The position numbers and the translations under genes were made by a program. Shown here in pieces: positions 9,082 to 20,376 of a stretch of 64,000 nt of DNA (position 1 is its first letter; each line of letters starts with the position of its first letter). The notes under the pieces were generated by a model. It searched no databases and was not told the origin of the DNA. It was given only the letters and a program-made list of their open reading frames with translations. Origin of the DNA: a virus; IMG/VR virus record IMGVR_UViG_3300037804_000222, positions 26,772 to 90,771 of that record. The stretch is one strand, 5' to 3'.

Positions 9082-9861
9082 TTAATGCCAATGAAGATTA
9101 TTTTGAGTTTCCTCTAGCAATGCAATTTCATCTGCAACATGCTTTTTATAATCTTTTAAGACATAATCTTCTGTAAATGTATGCAATTTTGTGTACTTTT
9201 CCAAAGCGTTTGACGGGTGTGCTGCCTTTAGTGCCTCAGTACATGCGTTATACGCTGACCATAATGTCCGCTCTTTAAACACGGGGGATTCAAACCATTC
9301 ATTAGCTGCTTTATTCATTTGAGAACCATTTAAAATGTGCTCATTTACAAATAATTGGCCAAGATAATCTCCCACCTGTTTATCGCTAAATTGTATTTCT
9401 TTCATAAACCCTGCATCTTCATGTGCTTGTTTATATCTACGATCTACATCTTCAAATAATTTTTGAATCAATACATCAAGATCGTCTTGCACATTTTGTG
9501 TGTGTTTACGCATATTGATAATATCACCTACAAACATTAAGTTAGAGCACACCATTACTGATGCTCCTCCACACAATCCTATAGGTAATGTTTTATCATA
9601 AGAGTTACGGAAGCCAATAGTTCTATTCATACCGCTTCCGTTTGACATACTAGCTCCATCGTGAAACGTTAAGCTGCCAAACATTTGTTGGCCTCTGTGG
9701 TTTACCTCTAGTTTTTCTTTGTGCGGGGACACTCCATAATGTTTTGTGCCCGCCTCTTTAATTCTTGTTACTAATTCTTGGTGACTTACTGGTACATAAG
9801 TCTCTGTTTGAGCTGGCACTGTTATCATGCCTAGCTCACCGAAATCTACTACTTTTGCCAT
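9082..9861 (-). CDS. DUF932-like phage/plasmid protein
   Basis: A 259-residue protein. The central GMNRTIGFRNSYDKTLPIGL, then GASVMVCSNLMFVGD, closely follows the core I recall for the DUF932 family of phage and plasmid proteins (a beta strand with 'RNSYDKT', then 'NG/CSNLM'). The C-terminal ~120 residues are helical with NNLHWH at the end. The family's biochemical role is not established; members sit among replication and recombination genes, as here. The ATG at 9861 overlaps the upstream small gene by 26 bp. Confidence 0.75.
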   Translation of the reverse strand: MAKVVDFGELGMITVPAQTETYVPVSHQELVTRIKEAGTKHYGVSPHKEKLEVNHRGQQMFGSLTFHDGASMSNGSGMNRTIGFRNSYDKTLPIGLCGGASVMVCSNLMFVGDIINMRKHTQNVQDDLDVLIQKLFEDVDRRYKQAHEDAGFMKEIQFSDKQVGDYLGQLFVNEHILNGSQMNKAANEWFESPVFKERTLWSAYNACTEALKAAHPSNALEKYTKLHTFTEDYVLKDYKKHVADEIALLEETQNNLHWH

Positions 9862-10075
9862 TGCTTCCGTTTGTTTTAGGGTCCTTATATGTCTTCAAGT
9901 ACTTAAATGCACGAGAAGGATTAACTTTGGGTGCTTCGTCCCAACCAAATTGTAACTTAAATGAATGATCAGTTACAAATTTTGTGGCGGGAGGATGCTT
10001 AACTTTAATAAGCTCTTTGTCGACTTTTACCTTTTTAATCAAAGGTTTGTAGTCTAAATAAGTTTTACTAGGCAT
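9836..10075 (-). CDS. small basic protein, 79 aa
   Basis: Unrecognised, strongly basic (runs of Lys, e.g. LIKKVKVDKELIKVK) with a single conserved-looking FGWDEAPKVNPSRAF segment. No membrane segment. It overlaps the DUF932 start by 26 bp. A nucleic-acid-binding role would fit the charge but is not shown. Confidence 0.6.
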   Translation of the reverse strand: MPSKTYLDYKPLIKKVKVDKELIKVKHPPATKFVTDHSFKLQFGWDEAPKVNPSRAFKYLKTYKDPKTNGSNGKSSRFR

Positions 10076-10077
10076 AT

Positions 10078-10254
10078 CTATACTTTTGTTTTTAGTTCTT
10101 CAATCTCTGTTTCAAGTATATCTGTAGCTTCTGTTAATAATTTAACTTGTTTTTGCAGCGAATTTAATTGCTGCTGTTGTAATAATACTAACTCTGCTAA
10201 TTTAGATGTTCCTGTTGAAAGATTTTGTTCTGAAGGTTTAGTTTCTACGTCCAT
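10078..10254 (-). CDS. small coiled-coil protein, 58 aa
   Basis: ATG at 10254, stop at 10078. The protein has a polar N-terminus, then a Leu/Gln-heptad segment (LAELVLLQQQQLNSLQKQ) typical of a coiled coil. It is 2 bp from the next gene and overlaps the upstream small membrane-protein gene by 10 bp. No function can be assigned. Confidence 0.5.
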   Translation of the reverse strand: MDVETKPSEQNLSTGTSKLAELVLLQQQQLNSLQKQVKLLTEATDILETEIEELKTKV

Positions 10255-10424
10255 TTGTGGTTTTTCTTTTTTCTTTTAGTTTTACCTCTAGGTACATCCA
10301 CATAATTAATTGGTGCACTCGTTCTTTTTCTTTCTTTTTTAGCTGCAGTATTAAACTGCGCTATTGACCAGCATACATATAATCCTATTACACATATTAC
10401 TGCTAACATAATTTCTAATGCCAT
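10245..10424 (-). CDS. small single-pass membrane protein, 59 aa
   Basis: ATG at 10424. One hydrophobic segment at residues ~4-22 (IMLAVICVIGLYVCW) is followed by a basic cytoplasmic tail (KKERKRTS... KTKRKKKN). The layout is an inner-membrane protein with a positive-inside tail. The gene is wedged between two other short minus-strand genes with overlaps of 10 bp or gaps of 1-2 bp. Confidence 0.5.
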   Translation of the reverse strand: MALEIMLAVICVIGLYVCWSIAQFNTAAKKERKRTSAPINYVDVPRGKTKRKKKNHKWT

Positions 10425-10425
10425 A

Positions 10426-10572
10426 TTACTCTTGTTTTAGTTCTTTAAGTTTTTTTTCAAGTTCTTCAATTGTTCTGACATGAAATTGGGAAGGTCTATT
10501 TCGATTGTATTGTTCAATACGCCATTCCTCCTCTCTTTTGAGTCTAATCCACTCTTCTTTCATTTTCCCCAT
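10426..10572 (-). CDS. small charged helical protein, 48 aa
   Basis: Start ATG at 10572 (a second in-frame ATG at 10563 gives 45 aa). It is almost entirely Glu/Lys/Arg-rich helix (KEEWIRLKREEEWRIEQY; EELEKKLKELKQE), likely a coiled coil. It ends 2 bp before the start of the small membrane protein. Confidence 0.4.
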   Translation of the reverse strand: MGKMKEEWIRLKREEEWRIEQYNRNRPSQFHVRTIEELEKKLKELKQE

Positions 10573-10699
10573 CTTGGTTTAAATTTTTTAAAGGTTTCTT
10601 AACCTTTAGTTAATACTTCTATTGCCAATTAATAGTATATTCACTTCATGAAAAGATCCACAAAATTTATATATGCACTTTTAATGGCAATAGTTTATA

Positions 10700-11023
10700 C
10701 TATAGCTCTCTTAAGCTAGTCACTAAATTACTTAATGATTCTATACTAGTTATTTTAGTGTTATCTTCCAGATACACATAAAAGTCTGGCTCATCTATAG
10801 ATGTTGATAGAAAATGAATTCCAGCTATATCTAAAGAATAATATATATATCCTGCAGCAATATAATTTTTACCTATCTCAGGTTTTTGATATACTTCTTC
10901 AAATCCTAAAGTTAATAATGCTAGTGGTGTTACATCTGATTTTTCAAAATCTTTAATAGATTTTTCTAATCGTTCTTTGTTTGCTGTAGAGGATGTAAGA
11001 TACTCTGTTTCATCTTGTTCCAT
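10700..11023 (-). CDS. hypothetical protein, 107 aa
   Basis: Unrecognised. An acidic N-terminus (MEQDETEYLTSS) leads into a mixed alpha/beta domain with a YIYYSLDIAGIHFL strand pair. No catalytic motif. ATG at 11023, 3 bp after the end of the 76-aa gene. A gap of 127 bp separates it from the 48-aa gene downstream. Confidence 0.65.
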   Translation of the reverse strand: MEQDETEYLTSSTANKERLEKSIKDFEKSDVTPLALLTLGFEEVYQKPEIGKNYIAAGYIYYSLDIAGIHFLSTSIDEPDFYVYLEDNTKITSIESLSNLVTSLREL

Positions 11024-11026
11024 AAA

Positions 11027-11257
11027 TTAAGGTTTTAGTTTGGTTAAATCTAATACAGGCTCTTGTGTTCCATAAATTAAGTTTTTTTGCTCTTCAAGAT
11101 AATTATTTACAAAAGCAATGATCGCTTTTTCAATATCTTTAGTTATTCTTTTTTTCATAGCCTTTTTCTTTTTACGGGGAAGTTTGTAATACCTCCTTGT
11201 ATAAGGCAATAACTCTTTTAGAGTTTCATGGCTAAAGTTTATTCTTTTCTTCCCCAT
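11027..11257 (-). CDS. small basic protein, 76 aa
   Basis: Unrecognised. It is very Lys/Arg-rich in the middle (RKKKKAMKKR), with an amphipathic C-terminal helix. I chose the ATG at 11257; an in-frame GTG at 11275 would add six residues. It is the first gene of the leftward run that follows the hairpin array and tRNA-like element. Confidence 0.6.
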   Translation of the reverse strand: MGKKRINFSHETLKELLPYTRRYYKLPRKKKKAMKKRITKDIEKAIIAFVNNYLEEQKNLIYGTQEPVLDLTKLKP

Positions 11258-11334
11258 AAAATAATTGTTTTTCACTGTTAATAATCGTTTTTCACCTATA
11301 TTTCGCCAAACCCACCTACTATAGAAAGTTATGG

Positions 11335-11459
11335 CAGGTTATAACCTGATAAAATGTTCGTGAACGTACGGCTATAGCCTGATGAGATTGTTCAGTGGAC
11401 TGAACAATTGTCCAGTTTTTTGATTAATAAACTGGACATTTGTCGCTTTTTTTGCGACA
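11335..11459. repeat. array of six short hairpins
   Basis: Six inverted repeats follow each other in 125 bp. They are: CAGGTTATAACCTG (11335-11348, perfect palindrome); GTTC-GT-GAAC (11356-11365); GGCTATAGCC (11370-11379, perfect); TTGTTCAG with CTGAACAA (11388-11407, 4-nt loop); TGTCCAGTTT with AAACTGGACA (11409-11438); and TGTCGC with GCGACA (11441-11459). All have different sequences, so this is not a family of copies of one repeat. The array abuts the 3' (CCA) end of the tRNA-like element at 11462 and lies 78 bp upstream of the 76-aa gene. A structured RNA, a processing region or a protein-binding/origin region would each fit. Confidence 0.75.
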
Positions 11460-11461
11460 GT

Positions 11462-11625
11462 TGGCTGTAGGAGAAGGATTCGAACCTCCACGTAGTAGTT
11501 AGCTAAAGGACAGATTTTAACCAGGGCGCTGCGCAGCTTGGTGGTCAATCCCATTATCCTTAGTTTATCCTATAATCTACACCCCCGAGACAGGAGGGTA
11601 TGTCTGCCAATTTCATCACCCTACA
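11462..11625 (-). tRNA. tRNA-like element with 92-nt variable region
   Basis: Reading leftward from 11625: acceptor 5' strand TGTAGGG, TG, a D-arm (ATG / AAATTGGCAGA / CAT), an anticodon arm CCCTC-CTGTCTC-GGGGG (11598-11582; 7-nt loop with U33, anticodon GUC, which would read Asp), then 92 nt, then T-arm GGAGG-TTCGAAT-CCTTC (11489-11473), acceptor 3' strand TCCTACA pairing 7/7 (one G-U), discriminator G and an encoded CCA at 11464-11462. Every tRNA part is present, but the distance between anticodon arm and T-arm is far beyond even class II tRNAs (total 161 nt without CCA). The D-arm looks like class II (Leu/Ser type). It could be a pseudo-tRNA, an interrupted tRNA or a tRNA-like RNA. Confidence 0.5.
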
Positions 11626-11990
11626 TTAAATTTGTACGTATTCCGTACATATATAGGTTTTCCTTTTTGTTAACGTCAACAAAATGGTTTACTCCGTCAG
11701 TTGCTCCGTCAACAAAAGGGTTTACTTATAGTTACAAATGTAAACAACTTAGTATAACTTTTAACTATACTTAAAACTTATTGCTCTATTCCCCAAATAA
11801 ACGGTTTTTCTGCGATTGTAATCACCAAATAACCGAAAATGAAGCTCAAGCTAACCTTAATTGTGTCTCATATTTGATACAAAATGAGCTTTATTGGTGC
11901 AAATATGCACCACATCTGCACCACATTAGGTTTGTTTTGTTACAGTTTGACAATCATTTTACCCTTGTTTTGATACACAAACAAGTTTGA
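11626..11990. other. gene-free segment with scattered inverted repeats
   Basis: About 365 bp without a convincing gene; frames on the plus strand here lack sensible composition and are discarded. Visible structure: TGTACG/CGTACA (11633-11649), GTTTAC/GTAAAC (11720-11745), AGTATA/TATACT (11751-11771), GGTGCA/TGCACC with a 4-nt loop (11896-11911), and CTTGTTT/AAACAAG (11964-11985). The last lies just past the stop of the 85-aa minus-strand gene and may act as its 3' end or terminator. The octamer CTCCGTCA also occurs twice (around 11692 and 11704). Confidence 0.55.
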
Positions 11991-12248
11991 TTAGAATCTT
12001 TTTACATTATCAGACAATGACTCTATGAAATTATTTACGCTATCGTACAGCTTTTTCTTTTTCTGCTCTACTTCTGCACATCTTTTTTGGTAATAGGTTA
12101 TAGCTTCAACGTAAGCATCTTGCTCTGTTTCTGCTCCCATAGATAAGTTCATTCCTCTTGTTTCATCATACAACCAATAGCCATCCTTACACTCTGATAT
12201 AGTTAGGCTATCTGTTAGTTTTATGTTACTTATTGCTTTACTTGCCAT
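11991..12248 (-). CDS. hypothetical protein, 85 aa
   Basis: Unrecognised. Short beta-hairpin-like region (SLTISECKDGYWLYDETRG in pieces) followed by a long C-terminal helix (YQKRCAEVEQKKKKLYDSV). The ATG at 12248 stands alone between two hairpin-rich non-coding stretches. Composition and codon use match neighbouring minus-strand genes. Confidence 0.65.
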   Translation of the reverse strand: MASKAISNIKLTDSLTISECKDGYWLYDETRGMNLSMGAETEQDAYVEAITYYQKRCAEVEQKKKKLYDSVNNFIESLSDNVKRF

Positions 12249-12561
12249 TTTATTTAGCTTTTAGTATGTACCAATTTGGTACATAATTAAGTGGTATGTC
12301 GGGATTTCCGACTAGTTCAATCTTAGTAAAATGTCCCAATTATTACCTATTTTCGGTACTTCTGGCGAATTTTTACTAAGATTCTTGATTCGCGAATTGC
12401 AAATTAATCTACAAGAATCACAATATAATATGAATTGTGCATGATTTGTCATGCGTTAACCCCATAAACGGTACTTAATGTATGAGAACTCATACAATAA
12501 TGTGATTTTCGTAGTATTTATATGTAGAAACATACAACTGGTGATGATTTGTCACTGGTTG
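12249..12561. repeat. hairpin-rich non-coding region
   Basis: No gene. Inverted repeats in order: TATGTACCAA/TTGGTACATA (12265-12285, 10-bp arms); GTCGG/CCGAC (12298-12312); AATCTTAGTAAAA with TTTTACTAAGATT (12319-12383, 13-bp arms, 39-nt loop); GATTCTTG/CAAGAATC (12380-12419) enclosing the perfect palindrome ATTCGCGAAT (12388-12397); GCATGA/TCATGC (12439-12454); TGTATGAG/CTCATACA (12479-12496); TATGT/ACATA (12521-12534). AT-rich with many palindromes, it could be an origin, a regulator-binding region or an encoded structured RNA. The same CGCG palindrome recurs at a late promoter (26495). Confidence 0.7.
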
Positions 12562-13038
12562 CTACATACTAGTTTCTATCCAAAGTCCTAAAGCGGTTCC
12601 TAATAAAAAGACAAGAAAGAAAACAAATACAATAAAAATAACTCTAGATTCGTTTATTCCCTCATTTGTTCCCTCATTTAATCCCTCACTTATTCCCTCA
12701 TTTGGTTTTTTATACGCTTCTTTTGGAGTTAAAGGTTTTTTAAAAATATCCTCATTTGTTCCCTTACGTAGTATCCCAGCTGTTTCACATAGCTTCAGGA
12801 ACTTATTATACTCGCCATCTTTATTGATAGTGTTAGGTGTTTGGGAATCGCCTGTATCTATTTCGCCAAATACTGATGTATTTATAACGACAACCTCCCC
12901 CATATTACGTTGGTAATGTTCTTCTAAGTCTACAAAGGATTCTCCACATTTGCAATAATCCATTGACCATCTTTTAGCGCTATCGGATTGCTGAATACTA
13001 TCACAGTACCCACATCTCCATTCCAGTAGTGTTCTCAT
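12562..13038 (-). CDS. zinc-ribbon, tail-anchored membrane protein
   Basis: A 158-residue protein. The N-terminus has a zinc-ribbon pattern: CGYC (from residue 9), then CKCG about 20 residues later. The middle is low-complexity: a four-fold repeat of a tetrapeptide of the form NEGx (GISEGLNEGTNEGINE). The C-terminus has a hydrophobic segment (VIFIVFVFFLVFLLGTALGL, residues ~133-152) ending close to the stop, i.e. a tail anchor. An in-frame TTG upstream at 13056 is possible; I prefer ATG at 13038. Role unknown; the cytoplasmic zinc ribbon suggests binding of a nucleic acid or protein at the membrane. Confidence 0.65.
   Translation of the reverse strand: MRTLLEWRCGYCDSIQQSDSAKRWSMDYCKCGESFVDLEEHYQRNMGEVVVINTSVFGEIDTGDSQTPNTINKDGEYNKFLKLCETAGILRKGTNEDIFKKPLTPKEAYKKPNEGISEGLNEGTNEGINESRVIFIVFVFFLVFLLGTALGLWIETSM
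12655..12702. repeat. four tandem 12-bp units
   Basis: Four imperfect copies of a 12-bp unit of the form TATTCCCTCATT (12655-12666, 12667-12678, 12679-12690, 12691-12702), differing at one to three positions. They encode the NEGx tetrapeptide repeats of the zinc-ribbon membrane protein, with a partial fifth copy near 12755. In-frame tandem units like these expand and contract by slippage, so the length may vary between related phages. Confidence 0.8.
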
Positions 13039-13054
13039 GTTTTCTTTTTTAAGC

Positions 13055-13082
13055 AAATAAGATTAATCAGTTGATCTTATTT
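13055..13082. terminator. candidate bidirectional hairpin terminator
   Basis: A 9-bp stem AAATAAGAT/ATCTTATTT with a 10-nt loop lies between the stop of the small membrane protein (13090) and the start of the zinc-ribbon gene (13038), both on the minus strand. The stem is AU-rich and has no long U-tract, so it may instead be an RNA-stabilising or regulatory hairpin. Confidence 0.4.
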
Positions 13083-13089
13083 ATCATAA

Positions 13090-13191
13090 TTATAAGTCAT
13101 CAAAATCATCATAATCTTTGATAGCTCGTAAGTATATAATGTTTGCTACAATAACTGATACTATAAAAACACCTATGCAAATTCCTACCAT
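13090..13191 (-). CDS. tiny membrane protein, 33 aa
   Basis: ATG at 13191. The product is MVGICIGVFIVSVIVANII... followed by a short acidic tail (DYDDFDDL): one membrane segment and little else. Its composition and position, directly downstream (leftward) of the structured 13.2-13.8 kb region, support a real small gene, but the length limits confidence. Confidence 0.45.
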   Translation of the reverse strand: MVGICIGVFIVSVIVANIIYLRAIKDYDDFDDL

Positions 13192-13306
13192 AATACTTGT
13201 TTTTTAATCTTGTCTCTTCAAAATGCAGCACTCAAGTAGCTTACTCTCTTTGGGATAAAGGTATTAAATATTTTTAACTTTACTATCTTATTTTTAAATA
13301 GTTAAG

Positions 13307-13442
13307 TTGTAAGTAATCCTTACAAGTTGATCAAAAGCGAAGCCTGAATAAGACATCTCCTACCCAGAACTTTACTTTTGATGCTGATTTTACCTAAGCT
13401 CCCCAGCTTAGGATTTCTTACCTATTGATTCTCATTAATAGG
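13307..13442. repeat. structured non-coding region with four stems
   Basis: Within the gene-free 13.2-13.8 kb: TTGTAAG/CTTACAA (13307-13325, 5-nt loop); ATCAAAAG/CTTTTGAT (13330-13382, closing a 37-nt region); CCTAAGCT/AGCTTAGG with a 4-nt CCCC loop (GGGG on the minus-strand RNA, 13393-13412); and CCTATTGA/TTAATAGG (13421-13442, one G-U). The short sequence GGATTT follows two of them. The stems are consecutive without a poly-U run, so this reads as one folded RNA of about 150-250 nt, directly 3' of the tRNA-like element if transcribed leftward. No known family recognised. Confidence 0.6.
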
Positions 13443-13483
13443 ATTTTCACTGTTTGCCCAACTCACGCTTGGTACTCTCGTTG

Positions 13484-13620
13484 TCAAAGAGGCAGGAGTC
13501 GAACCTGCATGAAGGACATCACAGCCTTTATGTGGACTTTTACCACTTCCGAATTACCAAGACTCAGTTAATTACTCCGCTTCTTTAGAAATTCTGCGTT
13601 TACCGTTTCGCCACTCCTTG
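13484..13620 (-). tRNA. tRNA-like element, 137 nt, interrupted
   Basis: Reading leftward from 13620: acceptor CAAGGAG, TG, D-arm GCG / AAACGGTAAA / CGC, A26, then about 80 nt that do not contain a normal contiguous anticodon arm, then T-arm GCAGG-TTCGACT-CCTGC (13508-13492) and acceptor CTCTTTG pairing 7/7 with the 5' strand (one G-U), discriminator A; no CCA is encoded. GAATT directly after A26 could pair with AATTC 34 nt later, which would place extra sequence in the anticodon loop. The D-arm is of class II (Leu-like) form. It cannot be a standard functional tRNA unless spliced or processed. Confidence 0.45.
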
Positions 13621-13802
13621 ATGCGCAGCACTCACGCAGCTTGCTCTCGTATTAGACCAAACGATAATTTTAGTTGTAGTATCACGTACTACGAGTGGTC
13701 TTTGTAAGAAAATAGGCTCTCAGGTTTTGTTTCGAAGTCTTACGGTGCAGTATCTGAGATTATTAGAGTTTAACTGCGTTCACTCATGCCTAACCTGTAC
13801 CC

Positions 13803-14978
13803 CTACAGGATGATTTCATCTATACTCTCCACCCATTTCACAATCTGTCCTTCTTGTCGTTTATTAAGCCACGAGACTTCTTGTGTATTAGGTGCATAAA
13901 GATTAATAATAACTGCTGTCTTACCTGGTACATATCTAATGACACGTCCAGTACGCTGTATATTATCAAGTTTACGTGAATTACCTGCAGCTACAATACC
14001 TAAAGAACAATCTGGTACATCCAATCCTGCATTCAAAGCTTTAACTGAGCTTATCACACGTTGTTTTGTTCTACCATCTTTAAATTTTCTAAGTACTTCA
14101 GCTTGCTGTTTTTTACTACGTTTACTATGAAAGCTTAGACATATATCGCCTAACTCTTCCTGTACTTCGTCTGCAAATTTAACGCTTCCATTGAATAATA
14201 AAGCTTTTCTATCACTAAATTTCTCTAGTAATTCTTTAATCACTGGTATCTTTGCTTGAGAGTTTTTACATATCTCTCCTCTTTTACGCATAGCATTGTA
14301 ATAAATAGCTGCAATACCACGCATATTTGGATCAGCATTCTGATCATTAAGATATTTCCTTGCCATATTAAATGACTGGGAACCTCCAAAGCCTAATCTA
14401 CCTGCAGCAAATCTAAATTGCTTGTTAGCTTTATCATAATCCTCAACTTCATCGTCATACATAGGTACTTTTAAATTATATACAAGATAATCACTCACCC
14501 ATCCTTTCTCATGACATTCTTCAATAGTCACTTCTTCAAATATAGGTGCATTCTCAAGTAATAAATCATGTCTACCATCTGCACGTTCTATAGTAGCAGT
14601 TAATCCCAAAAGATATGTATATTCTATTTTATGAAATACTCTTTGAAATTGATCTGCTCCATAACAATGTAACTCGTCAAGAATTAACATGTCACACTCG
14701 TAATTGTTTTTATATGCTGTATTAATTACAACAGTCTCACAATTCTTATGTATGTTGTGTTTCTTTAACTCTGCATTCCATTGATTCTTCAAGTTAATGG
14801 TAGGCACTACTATAATAACGCTGTTGCCAGGGTATCGATTAAACATACGTTTAAGTATAAGAATACTTGTGTAAGTTTTACCGAACCCTGTTGCAGCGAC
14901 TAAAGTTCCCACTCCTTTAACTTTACTAAATTTATCTGCTATCTCTAATTGTCTAGAGGTTCTGCTTAAATCTGTCAT
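13803..14978 (-). CDS. SF2 DNA helicase, UvsW-like
   Basis: A 391-residue superfamily 2 helicase. Motif I is ATGFGKT (residues 29-35), motif II is DELH (101-104), motif III is GLTATIERADGRH, and motif VI is IQRTGRVIR near residue 340. The layout (Walker motif almost at the N-terminus, no accessory domains) is close to T4 UvsW and phage 'DEAD-like' helicases that remodel branched DNA and R-loops. It lies just downstream of the polymerase gene with one small gene between; the starts overlap by 26 bp, so it is part of the replication operon. Confidence 0.85.
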   Translation of the reverse strand: MTDLSRTSRQLEIADKFSKVKGVGTLVAATGFGKTYTSILILKRMFNRYPGNSVIIVVPTINLKNQWNAELKKHNIHKNCETVVINTAYKNNYECDMLILDELHCYGADQFQRVFHKIEYTYLLGLTATIERADGRHDLLLENAPIFEEVTIEECHEKGWVSDYLVYNLKVPMYDDEVEDYDKANKQFRFAAGRLGFGGSQSFNMARKYLNDQNADPNMRGIAAIYYNAMRKRGEICKNSQAKIPVIKELLEKFSDRKALLFNGSVKFADEVQEELGDICLSFHSKRSKKQQAEVLRKFKDGRTKQRVISSVKALNAGLDVPDCSLGIVAAGNSRKLDNIQRTGRVIRYVPGKTAVIINLYAPNTQEVSWLNKRQEGQIVKWVESIDEIIL

Positions 14979-15240
14979 ACTGTTCTTCTGTTATTTTAAG
15001 AACTTTTAACATTCTGTTAGGATACTTATCGTTAGATGCTGTATTAGGATGGCCAGGTAAATAAGGTTGTAATCTACCTGGTGCCTGAGCTCCTGTATAG
15101 CTAATATATGTATAGTCACATAGCATACAAGACTCTGTAAAACTTCTAACTTTTGCCACCTCTAATCCTTTCCACCCTTGAATTGTCACATGGTCTCCTG
15201 GACGAAGCTCTTCTCCTGTCACGTCTTCTACTTTTTCCAT
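14953..15240 (-). CDS. hypothetical protein, 95 aa
   Basis: Unrecognised. The N-terminal half (VTGEELRPGDHVTIQGWKG in pieces) reads like a small SH3/KOW-type beta barrel ('PGDHVxIxG'); the C-terminus is helical and basic. It overlaps the polymerase 3' end by 13 bp and the helicase 5' end by 26 bp, so it belongs to the polymerase-helicase transcript. Confidence 0.65.
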   Translation of the reverse strand: MEKVEDVTGEELRPGDHVTIQGWKGLEVAKVRSFTESCMLCDYTYISYTGAQAPGRLQPYLPGHPNTASNDKYPNRMLKVLKITEEQYDRFKQNL

Positions 15241-17132
15241 ACTGTCGATATTTCTGTTTCTGCTTTTAATAGCCCTGATGGTATAATATCAAGTGTTGAT
15301 GTCTCCATAATCTCTTGTAATCTATGCTTCCACACAATTGCGTAGCTTTCATGTACGATTGTATCAATTTGATCATGAACTGTCATCACTATTTTAACAG
15401 GTAAATCGTTTTCATAGATATGATCACGAACCATAACAAGTGCAGACTTACACATATCAGCTCCACTACCTTGAATTGGTGTGTTTTTGCTGGCACGTTC
15501 TATCTTACCCATTATTGCGTTATCTGTGTTAATACCTTTCCACTCTTCAAACCATCTGATACGACGATATGGTGCATATGTTTTAATATGACCATTCTGT
15601 TTACCATAATTACCAAGAGACACTAAGAAATTCTTAATTGCAGGAAATGCTGTGAAGTATTTCTGAATCAATTTCTCTGCCTCTCTGTTACTTATAAGTA
15701 ATGTATCAGCTAATTTGTGTGGGCCCATACCATAGGCTAAACCGAAGTTAATACTCTTTACGTTTGTACGCAGTTTTTTATGTTTAGGGCAATCACATTT
15801 AAGTTGAGCACGTTCTGTACCACCACCTAAATTAGAATAAGCATAGTAAGCACAGCCTACATCAGCTGCATCTTTCCATTCTTTACCATAAACTAAATCT
15901 GCACACACGCTATGAAGGTCTTTACCTTCTTCTAGCGCCTTAATCCACACTGGATCTTTACTCCCTGTGGCTATAATACATAGTTCTTGTGAGCTGTAGT
16001 CGCCTGAAACAAATACCCAATCATCATAACCACTTATAAAGCAATTACGGTAATCATTATCTGCAGGTATCTGTTGCATATTTGGTTTCCCTGATGCTAC
16101 TCTACCTGTATTTAATATTTGTCTAAAGCTTGTTCTGACTCTACCGTCAGTATCTACATTATCTAAGAACTTTTCACCATAACTTGTAGCAAGCTTGGCC
16201 TGCTCTTTGTACTTAATATATGTTTTAACAAATGGATCTTTACTGTGGACATGTAAATTCTTAGCATTTACATCTTCAACGTTTAATCCATATGTTCTAA
16301 ATACATTTAGCACTTGTTTTGGTGAACTCCATTTAACATTTACCTTTCTAAGCTCTTCTACTGGCATAAATAAATCGCCTTGCACATAAGAATCTACAAA
16401 ATTATGAAGTATGTCATTAGATTCTATGATTTCATCTAAAGCATTCTCCATATTTTGCACTTCAAATTTAGCTTTCTTTGCAAGAATATTCCAGTTCTCT
16501 ACATCCAATCCGATACCATTAAATTCAATATCAGCAAATGTTAAAGCTGCATTGTTTTCAAGTTCGGCTGTATGTACAAGATCAAGTCTGCGACAGCTAA
16601 CTGTCTGATTATGATATAACTGTACAAGATATTCTACATCCTTTGCACCATATGTTATCTCTGACTCAGTGAATTCTTCACTACTTTTATTGATGAAATT
16701 AAATCTCACGCTCTTATCCATCTCTATTTTAAGTTCTCTTGAAAGAACGTTATTTAAAGAGTGGGACATGTCTTTACCGCAATGTATAACTTGAGATGTT
16801 AGCATAGTATCCCACACATTATTAAGTCTGATGTTATGTTTCATAAGAAACTTGTAATCAAACTTAACATTGTGTAAGATTTTAACTATGCTATCATCTT
16901 CAAGCACTCTTCTCAGAGGGGCAATACTTACGTAGCGCGTATCTATTACAAACTGAACATTTTCATCTCCAATTTGTAACATAATCATATCATCATCAAT
17001 GTGGCTTAGTCCAGTAGTTTCAGTGTCAATTGCTAACACTGTTTTATCCTTGCAATAGTTTATTACAGGCTCAAGATCTGTGCATGTAGCACAACAATCA
17101 AGAAGCTTTGGATTTCCTACGAACTGTATCAT
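15228..17132 (-). CDS. polA: DNA polymerase I family (family A)
   Basis: A 634-residue family A polymerase with 3'-5' exonuclease. Exo I is LAIDTETTG (D36, E38). Polymerase motif A is SGDYSSQELC (~375-384), motif B is KSINFGLAYG (~455-464), and motif C is VHDQID (~585-590). Motif C normally reads HDE; here the Glu is Gln. Between A and B there is a Cys/His segment (CAYYAYSN... KCDCPKHKK) that looks like an added metal-binding loop. There is no 5'-nuclease domain, as in T7-like replicative enzymes. This is presumably the replicative polymerase, acting with the primase and DnaB-type helicase of the 4-9 kb cluster. Confidence 0.9.
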   Translation of the reverse strand: MIQFVGNPKLLDCCATCTDLEPVINYCKDKTVLAIDTETTGLSHIDDDMIMLQIGDENVQFVIDTRYVSIAPLRRVLEDDSIVKILHNVKFDYKFLMKHNIRLNNVWDTMLTSQVIHCGKDMSHSLNNVLSRELKIEMDKSVRFNFINKSSEEFTESEITYGAKDVEYLVQLYHNQTVSCRRLDLVHTAELENNAALTFADIEFNGIGLDVENWNILAKKAKFEVQNMENALDEIIESNDILHNFVDSYVQGDLFMPVEELRKVNVKWSSPKQVLNVFRTYGLNVEDVNAKNLHVHSKDPFVKTYIKYKEQAKLATSYGEKFLDNVDTDGRVRTSFRQILNTGRVASGKPNMQQIPADNDYRNCFISGYDDWVFVSGDYSSQELCIIATGSKDPVWIKALEEGKDLHSVCADLVYGKEWKDAADVGCAYYAYSNLGGGTERAQLKCDCPKHKKLRTNVKSINFGLAYGMGPHKLADTLLISNREAEKLIQKYFTAFPAIKNFLVSLGNYGKQNGHIKTYAPYRRIRWFEEWKGINTDNAIMGKIERASKNTPIQGSGADMCKSALVMVRDHIYENDLPVKIVMTVHDQIDTIVHESYAIVWKHRLQEIMETSTLDIIPSGLLKAETEISTVWKK

Positions 17133-17137
17133 TTAAT

Positions 17138-17449
17138 TTAGTGTTTAAGATTTTGAGGATTGTGTTTATTTCTCTGCTCGCCCAATATTTTTTCCAGCGA
17201 CTCTTTGTTAACCTCTGGAATCGTGAAAGTATATTGACTTGCTTCTCCGACACTTCTAATTCTTCTCGTCGCTTCATCTCTATATCTTTTAGGTATGTGA
17301 GTACTAACTTCTAAATTATAAATAGCTTTAGCAACTATATTAGAAGCAATATCTATATCTCTACACTTTAATTGAAAAGAGAAGAAGTTAAGAAGAGTGT
17401 TATAATCACTCCTCTTATCTTCTGGTAACTCTTGCATAAAGGTATACAT
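17138..17449 (-). CDS. hypothetical protein, 103 aa
   Basis: Unrecognised helical, charged protein without membrane segments. I use the ATG at 17449; an in-frame TTG at 17479 would add ten residues and overlap the upstream gene's stop, giving tight coupling, so the true start is uncertain. It ends 5 bp before the polymerase start. Confidence 0.6.
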   Translation of the reverse strand: MYTFMQELPEDKRSDYNTLLNFFSFQLKCRDIDIASNIVAKAIYNLEVSTHIPKRYRDEATRRIRSVGEASQYTFTIPEVNKESLEKILGEQRNKHNPQNLKH

Positions 17450-17465
17450 ACGAGCGATAAACTCT

Positions 17466-17717
17466 TTACAACTCTCCAAGTGTATGAATTACTTTAGGTT
17501 GTACATTCTTTCTTGGTCTACCTCTTTTAGCTTTAGGTTTATTAACTTTATTACTTAATGTGTCTAACTCTAATTGAGTTATTCTACCTCTTGAGGCACA
17601 ATCTAAAAGATCTGATTCTAATTGGTGTACATTACGTCTTAATGAGCTTGTAGCTAAAAAAGCTATAAAAGCCATTGAAAGTGATACAAACATTGCTAAT
17701 CCTACTACTGTTTCCAT
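17466..17717 (-). CDS. small membrane protein with basic tail, 83 aa
   Basis: ATG at 17717. A hydrophobic N-terminal segment (VGLAMFVSLSMAFIAFLA, residues ~5-22) is followed by a coiled-coil-like polar stretch and an AT-hook-like basic patch (KPKAKRGRPRKN). The GRPRK core is the classical AT-hook motif that inserts in the minor groove of AT-rich DNA, so this may be a membrane-tethered DNA-binding protein. It is the first gene after the terminator at 17749. Confidence 0.6.
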   Translation of the reverse strand: METVVGLAMFVSLSMAFIAFLATSSLRRNVHQLESDLLDCASRGRITQLELDTLSNKVNKPKAKRGRPRKNVQPKVIHTLGEL

Positions 17718-17748
17718 ATTTTCTACTTATTTAAGTGTTTTAAAAAAT

Positions 17749-17775
17749 AGGAACTGCCTTTTCAGACAGTTCCTT
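17749..17775 (-). terminator. rho-independent terminator
   Basis: On the minus strand, AGGAACTGTC pairs with GGCAGTTCCT (10 bp, one G-U, loop TGAAAA) and is followed by ATTTTTT. It lies 28 bp past the stop of the 200-aa gene and before the 83-aa gene. It should end most transcription of the 200-aa gene and separate it from the polymerase operon. Confidence 0.8.
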
Positions 17776-17802
17776 TCTAACTAAATTGTTTGCTACAACA
17801 AC

Positions 17803-18405
17803 TTAATCCATTAATACTTGAGATAATTCTTCTACTACACTCTCTGCTGTTTTAGGAGCAGTACCATCACTAGAGATTGTTACATCATTAGCTAATGGGT
17901 TTGAAACCATAACACCATCATCATCGATAGTATATAATGGTAGTGCGTAAGTTTCACGATAGATTGGTCTACCTTGATTACATACAACAGCTTTTGTAGT
18001 AGGATTCATTTTAGGAGCTCTACTCATGGTTTGCCCTGTCTTTTTATCTTCCCAAGTATGAGCAGTAAAAGATTCTTTCACAAATAACCCTATTTCAGGC
18101 ATTGCATCTGGAAGAGTCTTAGTATCTTCATTATCAACTACTTTTTCAGTGTGTTCATTCCACAACTCATCACCTGGAACATCTAATGTAACAGGATCAA
18201 ATGTGTAACCAAATGCTTCTAACCATGCAGGTGTTACTGGATGCCATACTACTCGTGGTCTCGCTTGAGCCCCTAAAGTCATTGAAATTAAGTTGTTACC
18301 ACCTGTGGTTCCAACTTCACATCTTAGAACAGCTTGATAAACTCCTTCATTAGAAGTTGGTGTTAATTCTGATAATCTCGGCGTTTTACTAGTAATTTCA
18401 CTCAT
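17803..18405 (-). CDS. hypothetical protein, 200 aa
   Basis: Unrecognised. Mixed beta-rich protein with no Cys cluster, no signal peptide and an acidic C-terminal helix (ESVVEELSQVLMD). The gene has its own strong terminator 28 bp downstream and a non-coding structured region upstream, so it is likely an independent and possibly well-expressed transcript. It could be an SSB-like or anti-host protein, but nothing in the sequence decides. Confidence 0.65.
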   Translation of the reverse strand: MSEITSKTPRLSELTPTSNEGVYQAVLRCEVGTTGGNNLISMTLGAQARPRVVWHPVTPAWLEAFGYTFDPVTLDVPGDELWNEHTEKVVDNEDTKTLPDAMPEIGLFVKESFTAHTWEDKKTGQTMSRAPKMNPTTKAVVCNQGRPIYRETYALPLYTIDDDGVMVSNPLANDVTISSDGTAPKTAESVVEELSQVLMD

Positions 18406-18465
18406 TTTCTTGTGTTTTTAAGTGATTAATAAATAATTGTGTGTGTTGATTATGCTTACGCATAG

Positions 18466-18508
18466 TAAAGCATGCAGGAATCGAACCTGCATTTATACCA
18501 TATGCTTT
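18466..18508 (-). ncRNA. tRNA acceptor/T-arm minihelix-like element
   Basis: On the minus strand, AAAGCAT (18508-18502) pairs perfectly with ATGCTTT (18473-18467), enclosing an 11-nt linker and a perfect T-arm GCAGG-TTCGATT-CCTGC (18490-18474); the next base is A in the discriminator place. This is the top half of a tRNA with no D or anticodon arm. It may be the 3' end of a longer tRNA-like element whose 5' part I could not find, a remnant, or an independent minihelix. Confidence 0.4.
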
Positions 18509-18513
18509 ATTTA

Positions 18514-18696
18514 AAGAGCTGTGCATAGCTCTTAGTGTTAGTTGCCAACCTAACTCTTGGCTTTTTTTGGAGCACATCCGATGCACCGAATGTTTCTGGA
18601 TTTGATAACTAATATTGCTATTATAGCATCTCACCATTACAGCTTCTTTGTTTGAGGTGAAGTATCTGCAGCCTTCTCATTACACAATATGTGTAA
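18514..18696. repeat. array of five hairpins next to the minihelix
   Basis: In order: AAGAGCT/AGCTCTT (18514-18533, 6-nt loop), GTTAG/CTAAC (18537-18554), CATCCG/CGAATG (18575-18592, one G-U), TGCTA/TAGCA (18616-18628), TTACACA/TGTGTAA (18680-18696). No gene fits here: the only long frame crosses the minihelix and has an implausible composition. The organisation (short, unrelated, closely spaced stems plus a tRNA-like end) is the same as at 11.3 kb and 13.3 kb. Confidence 0.65.
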
Positions 18697-18703
18697 AGTA
18701 TTG

Positions 18704-18883
18704 TCAAGCAACCTCTGTTTTTATTGATGTTAATTCAAATGGCTCTTTATATCCTCTAGCTCTTAACTCTTCTATTAAGAATCTTTCTTCAAATTGTAGT
18801 TGAAAGTGAGGTTCTTTTTCTTTTTTCTTAGTCTTTATTCTTTTTCTTACGGTTAAAAGAGAGTTTAATAATATGTCATCCAT
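18704..18883 (-). CDS. small basic protein, 59 aa
   Basis: ATG at 18883, stop at 18704. N-terminal half very basic (VRKRIKTKKKEKE), C-terminal half an amphipathic helix (EERFLIEELRARGYKEPFEL). The segment 'LIEELRARGY' looks like a real protein helix. No function recognised. It is separated from the next gene by 33 bp. Confidence 0.5.
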   Translation of the reverse strand: MDDILLNSLLTVRKRIKTKKKEKEPHFQLQFEERFLIEELRARGYKEPFELTSIKTEVA

Positions 18884-18916
18884 GACTTAATAGATTTATG
18901 TTAATGAAAAGAAGGG

Positions 18917-19111
18917 CTAAAATAGCCCTCCATAATTATCTTTCTTTGCGTTACAACAAATGTCGCAACTACATCCTCCAGATGCTGTTCTTGGTTGAGG
19001 ATTAAATCTCATAAGAGTATCTGTAGGGTTCTCAATCATATCTAGTACTTCTAATACTTTATGATTTCTTTTTCTTTTGTAAAGTCTGCGTAAAGCTTTT
19101 AGCTTCTTCAT
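18917..19111 (-). CDS. small Cys-rich protein, 64 aa
   Basis: A basic N-terminal helix (KKLKALRRLYKRKR) precedes a C-terminal CSCDICC motif: four cysteines within seven residues, likely a metal-binding knuckle (possibly zinc). ATG at 19111. It overlaps the end of the 39-aa frame by 53 bp. A tiny nucleic-acid-binding regulator would fit, as inference. Confidence 0.6.
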   Translation of the reverse strand: MKKLKALRRLYKRKRNHKVLEVLDMIENPTDTLMRFNPQPRTASGGCSCDICCNAKKDNYGGLF

Positions 19112-19178
19112 TATTTCTTTGGCTTAGTTTATACTCTTTGATTGCTTTTTTTACTCTGATATAATTCTCGTATCTCAT
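19059..19178 (-). CDS. possible tiny basic protein, 39 aa
   Basis: ATG at 19178, stop at 19059. A highly basic helical peptide (YIRVKKAIKEYKLSQRN; QTLQKKKKS). It overlaps the following Cys-rich gene by 53 bp, longer than usual here, which lowers confidence. Confidence 0.3.
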   Translation of the reverse strand: MRYENYIRVKKAIKEYKLSQRNNEEAKSFTQTLQKKKKS

Positions 19179-19199
19179 AGGTATGAAGATTAATTAAGA

Positions 19200-19600
19200 C
19201 TTAAAAAGTATCGGCTTTGGGTTCAGGTACCGAATATGGAGACTGATTCCACATCTAAATGTCAATATAGCTCACCAGCCTTATCAAGTTATTATCCCGC
19301 CATTGTGTCGCCTATGCTCTCTTGCAAACGTTGGTTGTATTGAGCTCCTCAGCTTTACTACAACTGATTATTACGTTACACAATAACTTACAACTATCGG
19401 GATAACCAGAGTATGGACAAGGAAATACCAACTCTGTGCGCATTCTTTATTTAGTAATTGTTATAATAGCCATACCACGAAGGTCATTTACTTTAGATTA
19501 CTCTATTAAGAAAGTTCGTTATGATCTAATCTATTCGACTTTCATAGTTTATTGGTAGGAGAGTTTCGCTCCAGTATCTAATGCTATTACAACAATTATC
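19200..19600. other. gene-free 400-bp region with long-range pairing
   Basis: No credible gene in any frame. Visible inverted repeats: TTATCCCG (19292-19299) with CGGGATAA (19398-19405) enclosing about 98 nt, which contain GTTGTA/TACAAC (19334-19364) around TGAG/CTCA (19341-19351); then CAGAGT/ACTCTG (19407-19436). The nesting (a closing 8-bp stem around smaller stems) is what a folded RNA domain would look like. No T-arm consensus is present, unlike the other three structured regions. Confidence 0.5.
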
Positions 19601-19601
19601 T

Positions 19602-19838
19602 TTATTTATACATTATCTGTCCAAACTCGTCTTCACAAAGTTCTTCTGAATTATCATCAACTTGTGCTTCAAGCTCTTTGATACGATAATCTTTTTTATT
19701 TATAGTATTTCTAAGCTTGTTGATGCGTTTTTTAAACCTATCTGAATCTTCTATTGCATCTTCTTCAAGATCTTTGATACGTGCATGTGCTAATTTAAGC
19801 GCATTTCTTAATTCTATGTTTTCTATCTCGTAATCCAT
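19602..19838 (-). CDS. small coiled-coil protein, 78 aa
   Basis: Almost entirely heptad-patterned charged helix (ELRNALKLAHARIKDLEEDA; RINKLRNTINKKDYRIKELE), ending in an acidic tip. ATG at 19838. A coiled-coil dimer is the only structural prediction that can be made. Confidence 0.6.
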   Translation of the reverse strand: MDYEIENIELRNALKLAHARIKDLEEDAIEDSDRFKKRINKLRNTINKKDYRIKELEAQVDDNSEELCEDEFGQIMYK

Positions 19839-19898
19839 AATTAGCTATATTTATAATGTTAGGTTAAAAGGTTAAGTGGTGAAAGGTGGTAATATGTG

Positions 19899-20016
19899 GG
19901 TGTTGTATCTGGAACACCAACTAACACGCATGAAACGTAGCGTAACTGTACCTCTACAGTACCTCTACAGTACACGACGTATCATGACACTACACAACAC
20001 GTGTGATTACACACGT
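19899..20016. repeat. hairpins and an 11-bp tandem duplication
   Basis: GGTGTT/AACACC (19899-19918, 8-nt loop); two perfect tandem copies of GTACCTCTACA (19948-19958, 19959-19969) ending in a third GTAC; ACGTGTG/CACACGT (19999-20016, 4-nt loop). This lies just past the terminator of the 73-aa gene (leftward), in a gene-free 190-bp stretch. Confidence 0.6.
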
Positions 20017-20017
20017 A

Positions 20018-20046
20018 AATAAAAAAAGAGAGAGCAAAGCTCTCTC
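20018..20046 (-). terminator. rho-independent terminator
   Basis: On the minus strand, GAGAGAGC and GCTCTCTC form an 8-bp perfect stem with a 3-nt loop, followed by TTTTTTTATTT. It is 10 bp past the stop of the 73-aa gene (20057), the textbook arrangement for termination of a leftward transcript. Confidence 0.85.
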
Positions 20047-20056
20047 GATTCATGGG

Positions 20057-20278
20057 CTATGCCCATATGATTCCGCCATCTGCGATGGTGCTAATCTCAG
20101 GCACTTCAGTGCCTTTAGCAAATTCGTCGCTACAGTCGCCTTCTAGGCGGATGAAGCAAGTATTTGCATTGGTAGAGACCACTCGGTCTTTACCAAGAAT
20201 TTTGCGAGTTTCGAACCCGCTTAAACCTACGACAGTTTGACCGTCTTTAACTTGAACCCAAAAACATTTAGTTTTCAT
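20057..20278 (-). CDS. small protein from a hairpin-dense gene, 73 aa
   Basis: ATG at 20278. The product (MKTKCFWVQVKDGQTVVGL... ) reads as a small beta-rich protein with one Cys pair (CF... DCSDE); no family recognised. The DNA is extraordinary: it holds a 12-bp stem (20169-20196, one G-U, 4-nt loop), AGGCACT/AGTGCCT (20099-20114), ATGGGC/GCCCAT (20052-20066), CCATC/GATGG (20076-20088), CGCC/GGCG (20137-20149) and GCGAG-TTTCGAA-CCCGC (20204-20220). It may therefore be a structured RNA rather than, or as well as, a gene. An intrinsic terminator follows. Confidence 0.5.
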   Translation of the reverse strand: MKTKCFWVQVKDGQTVVGLSGFETRKILGKDRVVSTNANTCFIRLEGDCSDEFAKGTEVPEISTIADGGIIWA

Positions 20279-20376
20279 AATGTAGCAAAATTTAGTTAGG
20301 GGGCATTAGTGCCCAAAACTTAGAGGGGGTGGGGTTATATAAGTGGTCTACTCTCTCATTTCCGTAAACAAAATTT

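Follow-up and report, generated by a model that had tools for sequence, protein, structure and literature searches.

Ribonuclease P (RNase P) measures the stacked acceptor and T stems of transfer RNA (tRNA) from the elbow, the D loop apparently being dispensable, and it cleaves structures that present such a stack; transfer-messenger RNA (tmRNA) is one of its substrates, MALAT-1 and Men-beta are listed as tRNA-like substrates, and the CCA-adding enzyme also measures the distance from the elbow to the 3′ end (PMC4919913). In plant mitochondria, tRNA-like t-elements serve as cleavage sites (PMC8003010). We describe here a mini-tRNA-like RNA of 43 nucleotides (nt) found in a 64-kb stretch of DNA (the window) from the 90,771-base virus record IMGVR_UViG_3300037804_000222, and its occurrence in other phages. 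To judge from sequence, the record is a crAss-like phage, its PolA being closest to those of crAss-like phages (cr108_1, crAss001 and others; 26–28% identity). A sequence-only reading of the window had picked out three tRNA-like ends, repeated perfect hairpins and a gene made of hairpins within 9 kb, and had proposed that they form a single system. For comparison we used 40 IMG/VR loci retrieved with the PolA protein as query, which, because they were chosen by PolA, are an unbiased sample for all nearby features.

The mini element lies on the minus strand at 18508–18466, where it is matched by covariance model R1 at an E value of 2.2e-18. A T-arm search across relatives revealed that the end near 18,490 is part of this complete small RNA. 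Its acceptor stem of 7 base pairs (bp) is formed by AAAGCAT (18508–18502) and ATGCTTT (18473–18467). These strands enclose the linker ATGGTATAAAT (18501–18491), which begins ATGGTA and carries the D-loop GG, and the T arm GCAGG-TTCGATT-CCTGC (18490–18474); a discriminator A (A73) follows at 18466. The element thus reads AAAGCAT-ATGGTATAAAT-GCAGG-TTCGATT-CCTGC-ATGCTTT-A and has the acceptor stem, T stem and T loop of a tRNA with neither D stem nor anticodon arm. Its predicted fold agrees with this structure (z −2.67). Without an anticodon, decoding is impossible. The Rfam tRNA model (RF00005; gathering cut-off 29 bits) gives the window copy 22.4 bits and the relatives' copies 13.6–24.6 bits, and scores of about 14–25 bits, below the cut-off, account for annotation having overlooked the mini elements; no Rfam family covers them. 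An intron-split tRNA was considered and rejected, the intron mode of ARAGORN being inconsistent and the compact form leaving no room for an intron.

The same design occupies the same place in the PolA-selected relatives, spelled in other letters (GAAGCAT...GTGCTTC, AAGAGTA...TACTCTT, GTGAG...CTCAC). Across 13 distinct crAss-relative sequences, 95.5% of cells are paired and 11 of 12 pairs have changed on both sides, giving a covariation score of 0.599 compared with 0.267 when shuffled and at most 0.158 when slid. A covariance model detects the element in 27 of the 40 related records at E ≤ 0.1. These matches are mostly full-length, with 3e-18 as the best E value, and among the negative records several are fragments that end short of the region. 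For 25 diverse members, from which model R2 was built, 98.9% of cells are paired and the score is 1.18 versus 0.24, the acceptor being partly selected in this set. Covariation therefore establishes the stems of the family. Between acceptor and T arm there is just a linker of 9–11 nt, or a variable hairpin, and no decoding anticodon arm; in L016, L002 and L019 the position of that arm is filled by a variable insert, often a hairpin. Compact members among the PolA-selected loci have GGT, which retrieval never required. Conserved, then, are an acceptor/T-stem stack of 11–12 bp, the T loop and the GG; the acceptor sequence is free and the decoding parts are missing. Variable acceptor letters combined with a constant GG and T loop fit recognition by shape, and the GG of the linker could contact the T loop as in a tRNA elbow.

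The element is conserved well outside this genome, contrary to the case, named by the earlier reading as one that would count against it, of an arrangement peculiar to a single genome. The pattern ATGGTWA N2-8 RGTTCGATTCY, which constrains the linker and T loop and ignores the acceptor stem, matched at least 120 IMG/VR stretches. At least six of seven acceptor pairs can form in 63 of the 113 distinct matches listed, whereas swapping 3′ strands among these listed matches gave a mean of 4.6 and a maximum of 12 in 300 swaps. A stricter pattern found 45 matches in viral contigs against 8 in 257 Gb of cell genomes, and R2 matched two Bacteroidota genomes out of 297, one of the two being a seed of the model. 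Phages that carry the mini element include those of Bacteroidota, Firmicutes and Actinobacteria; in cell genomes it is rare. Unannotated copies are present in the crAss-like phage cr53_1 (18 nt ahead of the primase start), Streptococcus prophage Javan87, Streptococcus thermophilus phage P738 and Corynebacterium phage PSonyx, the last with an ACCA end and upstream of an RtcB-like ligase gene; weaker candidates are found in Streptomyces phage NootNoot, Arthrobacter phage Talia1610 and Listeria phage List-36. Three matches of a first scan (L042, L045 and L059) were discarded as ordinary tRNA-Gly-like genes matched by chance. Literature searches, which barely covered subscription journals and preprints, found no description of a phage tRNA-like RNA of this kind, and the family appears to be undescribed so far.

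Placement was assessed with heuristic gene calls. Of 134 member contexts, 86 lie outside heuristic genes, and among these the downstream gene is co-directional in 74 and opposite in 9. By hand count, about 23 of 69 members begin no more than 20 nt after an upstream stop codon on the same strand, and a start codon is no more than 40 nt away in 34% of members versus 19% of random positions. Members therefore share the direction of their flanking genes, often directly following a stop and 10–60 nt ahead of the next start, which is the intergenic, co-directional placement of a t-element or tRNA punctuation mark. The arrangement is exemplified most clearly by record G044 (L256, G044 9500–17293), where nine minus-strand copies stand within 5.3 kb, most of them 7–8 nt past the preceding stop. 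After each copy come a hairpin, in most cases TTGACAC..GTGTCAA, then the ribosome-binding site GAGGAGG, a start codon and a gene.

The conservation of features used in shape recognition, together with this placement, favours a punctuation mark in polycistronic transcripts. We judge the chances to be about even that phage mRNAs are punctuated by the 43-nt element, acting as a minimal substrate of RNase P and of tRNA 3′ processing, an account that agrees with the earlier suggestion of phage RNAs mimicking tRNA ends for processing. On this account the element belongs to an RNA family widespread among phages and is a tRNA reduced to its upper half, in which an acceptor of 6–7 bp is stacked on a T stem of 5 bp with the loop TTCGATT. 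Of the D loop only a bare strand, ...TGGT..., is left, whose pairing with the T loop could form the elbow, the D stem and anticodon arm having gone or given way to a small variable hairpin. We infer the steps that lead from this structure to cutting. Within a polycistronic transcript, host RNase P would cut on the 5′ side of the element and the host tRNA 3′ machinery would trim the 3′ side, dividing the message into units and setting a defined 5′ end for every mRNA that lies downstream. Such an mRNA would, in some lineages, begin with a hairpin followed by the ribosome-binding site, and the excised mini-tRNA would be a by-product or a second product. More tentatively, and with slightly less than even confidence, we propose that phages of several bacterial phyla use a purpose-built mini-tRNA without anticodon as a common mark, at which the host's RNase P and tRNA 3′-processing machinery divide polycistronic mRNAs into pieces the size of a gene, each with a defined 5′ end.

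Several observations weigh against punctuation. The remaining 48 of the 134 contexts overlap a heuristic open reading frame. In L111 (8985–9840, minus strand), six tandem copies, separated by A-rich spacers with xAAC-type repeats, end in a terminator-like hairpin, which suggests that the RNA can be a product in its own right. In P738, promoter-like sequence just upstream places the element in a leader and not between two genes. Nor is a downstream hairpin general, z falling below −1.5 in 17% of members versus 25% of control stretches; a 5′ stabiliser hairpin was accordingly rejected as a family feature, although downstream hairpins do occur in the crAss, L112/G044 and L121 lineages. Finally, most members end ...A-C-T/A/G and not CCA, and the bacterial RNase P contact prefers CCA.

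The tandem array bears on the idea that the mini-tRNA is itself the product, a decoy that would occupy or absorb host factors able to recognise a tRNA by its elbow, by its acceptor stem or by its 3′ tail. Among the proposed targets are tRNA-tail nucleases, toxSAS enzymes, the CCA-adding enzyme, SmpB and RNase P. Several members (L002, PSonyx) encode an ACCA end, the immune effector Cas12a3 recognises acceptor, T arm and CCA tails (PMC12851939) and FaRel2 acts on a minihelix (PMC11559606). Since these parts of tRNA are also what host defence enzymes read, and since L111 carries its array, a decoy merits consideration, yet we think it unlikely: acceptor letters differ at every pair, which leaves no place for a reader of specific sequence, copy number is one or two in most phages, the elements fit tightly between gene ends and CCA is not encoded in most copies. 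Leader positions, including that of P738 just after its promoter-like sequence and that of cr53_1 shortly before the primase, would suit a stable 5′-leader or translation-control element acting uncut, for example as an elbow roadblock to exonucleases or a leader structure. Such a role would explain neither the retention of tRNA features (T loop, GG, discriminator A then C) nor the location right after upstream stop codons, and we regard it as improbable.

Two further explanations place the element at the level of DNA or of decayed genes. Phage attachment sites (attP) do span the 3′ halves of tRNA genes (PMC10865867), and the element might be such a site, holding the 3′ portion of a tRNA gene from the host, or else a remnant of an ordinary tRNA gene without its middle. 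The 3′ half of the window copy was nevertheless found in none of 396 Bacteroidota genomes at up to one mismatch (the phage's host is not identified), a paired 5′ strand and GG linker are not expected at attP, as many as nine copies occur per record, and compensatory changes across diverged phages contradict decay, all of which makes an origin of this kind very improbable. Least probable of all is a recombination cassette boundary that enables gene modules to be swapped. The modular units of G044, in which mini element, hairpin, Shine–Dalgarno sequence and gene follow one another, would fit such exchange, but conservation falls on the letters of the tRNA elbow, and stem letters differ between copies while pairing is kept, so that the element serves RNA structure and not DNA identity.

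In the window the mini element has hairpins on either side. A hairpin with 10-bp arms (90%) lies just upstream at 18514–18533 on the minus strand, and similar hairpins with altered stems are found in L049 and L050. Directly 3′ of the element, within the leader of the gene that follows, is the minus-strand hairpin TATGC-GTAA-GCATA (18451–18464), whose counterparts in relatives are TATGCATAAGCATA, TATGCAAAATGCATA and TATGCAATATTGCATA. Pairing of a downstream AAGCAT with the 3′ strand of the acceptor was considered and rejected, as it is missing in L011, L015 and L020. The gene directly downstream (17803–18405, minus strand) encodes a 200-residue protein with no match in Pfam or PHROG. In one lineage (L098, L103, L141, L187, L194 and L209), a conserved stretch TATAAAaa-TG--GAACAAGTA stands upstream of the element and is possibly a promoter or an additional RNA domain.

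The other two tRNA-like ends are also real and lie on the same strand. A class-II tRNA-like RNA at 11464–11625 (minus strand) has an acceptor, a D loop of Leu/Ser type, an anticodon stem, a V stem that encloses a long structured insert, and a T arm; its anticodon loop is CTGTCTC. The RNA is 95% identical to its counterparts in L005 and L007, where flanking genes are about 77% identical, and it occurs in the window and 12 further loci; the loci listed for it are the window, L005, L007, L092, L093 and L211–L219. In 10 aligned sequences the acceptor, anticodon stem, outer V stem and T stem are paired in every sequence scored, and several pairs show compensatory changes. The CTGTCTC loop is invariant in these 10, an invariance that is partly selected since the search pattern included this loop together with some of the D arm; the length of the variable-arm insert differs among loci. 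At default settings, neither ARAGORN nor Rfam recognised the RNA, which may be a tRNA mimic or else a tRNA whose anticodon loop is unusual. The hairpin block just 3′ of it (11335–11463, minus strand) is 87–89% identical in L218 and L219.

The third RNA, at 13484–13620 (minus strand), is the one tRNA that Rfam reports; it scores 33.4 bits with the Rfam tRNA model and has about 85 nt of extra sequence. It comprises a Leu-type D arm, the acceptor CAAGGAG/CTCTTTG and a T arm, and its anticodon/variable region is degenerate and enlarged. Immediately 3′ of it on the same strand (13455–13482) is the 28-nt motif AACGAGAGTACCAAGCGTGAGTTGGGCA, which is near-identical in four more phage loci (L012, L026, L036 and L093). 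The motif is coding in L012, but in both L093 and the window its place is directly after a tRNA-like RNA; resembling motifs are found near 13220 and 13628. Leu-type RNAs were also seen elsewhere: a distant relative (L032, 5250–5340) has one whose anticodon loop is apparently about three bases, and that of L034 (5420–5545) has an elongated anticodon arm whose loop possibly pairs with the variable region.

The hairpins noted across the gene-free parts of the 9 kb fared unevenly. Two perfect hairpins are present in 11300–11475, where 0.20 are expected (minimum free energy (MFE) z −7.35), three in 18406–18703 against 0.45 (reached in 1 of 200 shuffles) and four in 19839–20056 against 0.35 (0 of 200), and 12249–12561 on the minus strand stands out by its folding (MFE z −7.9). 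In 13057–13480, 13621–13802 and 19112–19601 the hairpin count is not above chance. The gene-free, strongly folding stretch at 12249–12561 matches no known family. The supposed gene made of hairpins (20057–20278, minus strand) is an ordinary gene for a 73-residue protein: it has one perfect hairpin against 0.29 expected (53 of 200 shuffles), its MFE z of −4.7 resembles the −4.3 of the polA coding control, and L023 and L061 encode protein relatives at 30–33% identity. It overlaps the sole tRNA called by ARAGORN, a tRNA-SeC at 20197–20292, which lies inside coding sequence and is most likely due to chance. Ordinary genes, PolA and a superfamily 2 (SF2) helicase, also occur within these 9 kb, the helicase gene being left of PolA and a portal gene right of it. 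The proposal of one combined system is not supported: each part is conserved independently of the others, the supposed hairpin gene is an ordinary one, and the hairpins adjacent to the mini element are lineage-specific.

If the punctuation reading is correct, a type of non-coding RNA common among phages has been overlooked because tRNA finders require an anticodon arm. This would account for the way in which some phages use host enzymes to shape their mRNAs. RNase P, RNase Z and the CCA-adding enzyme would gain a natural substrate of minimal size, and a very small processing tag would become available. Were the mini-tRNA instead a decoy, it would be a new counter-defence RNA. PSonyx (Corynebacterium glutamicum) and P738 (S. 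thermophilus) are culturable carriers suited to direct testing.

Compared with tRNA itself, the mini element shares the acceptor stem, the T arm with a TTCRANN loop, the D-loop GG and the discriminator A, but is only 41–46 nt long and is without D stem and anticodon arm. The tRNA-like domain of tmRNA likewise combines acceptor, T arm and D loop without a D stem. Unlike tmRNA, the mini element has no tag reading frame, pseudoknots or long P2 helix, for which the compact form has no space, and ARAGORN finds no tmRNA within the window. The mascRNA and menRNA at the 3′ ends of MALAT1 and MEN-beta resemble it as tRNA-like RNase P substrates that generate RNA ends; they differ in being eukaryotic and larger and in retaining an anticodon-like hairpin. 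TMERs of murine gammaherpesvirus 68 are also viral tRNA-like units with hairpins, but they are near-complete tRNA folds that feed microRNAs in eukaryotic cells. The mini element is also akin to t-elements and mitochondrial tRNA punctuation, in which tRNA-like structures between genes mark cleavage sites (PMC8003010); t-elements, however, are organellar, and no phage or bacterial counterpart was found in the literature searched. The mini element would represent a phage version of transcript processing otherwise known mainly from organelles: structurally a variant of tRNA-like RNA and, if cutting is shown, new as a phage processing device.

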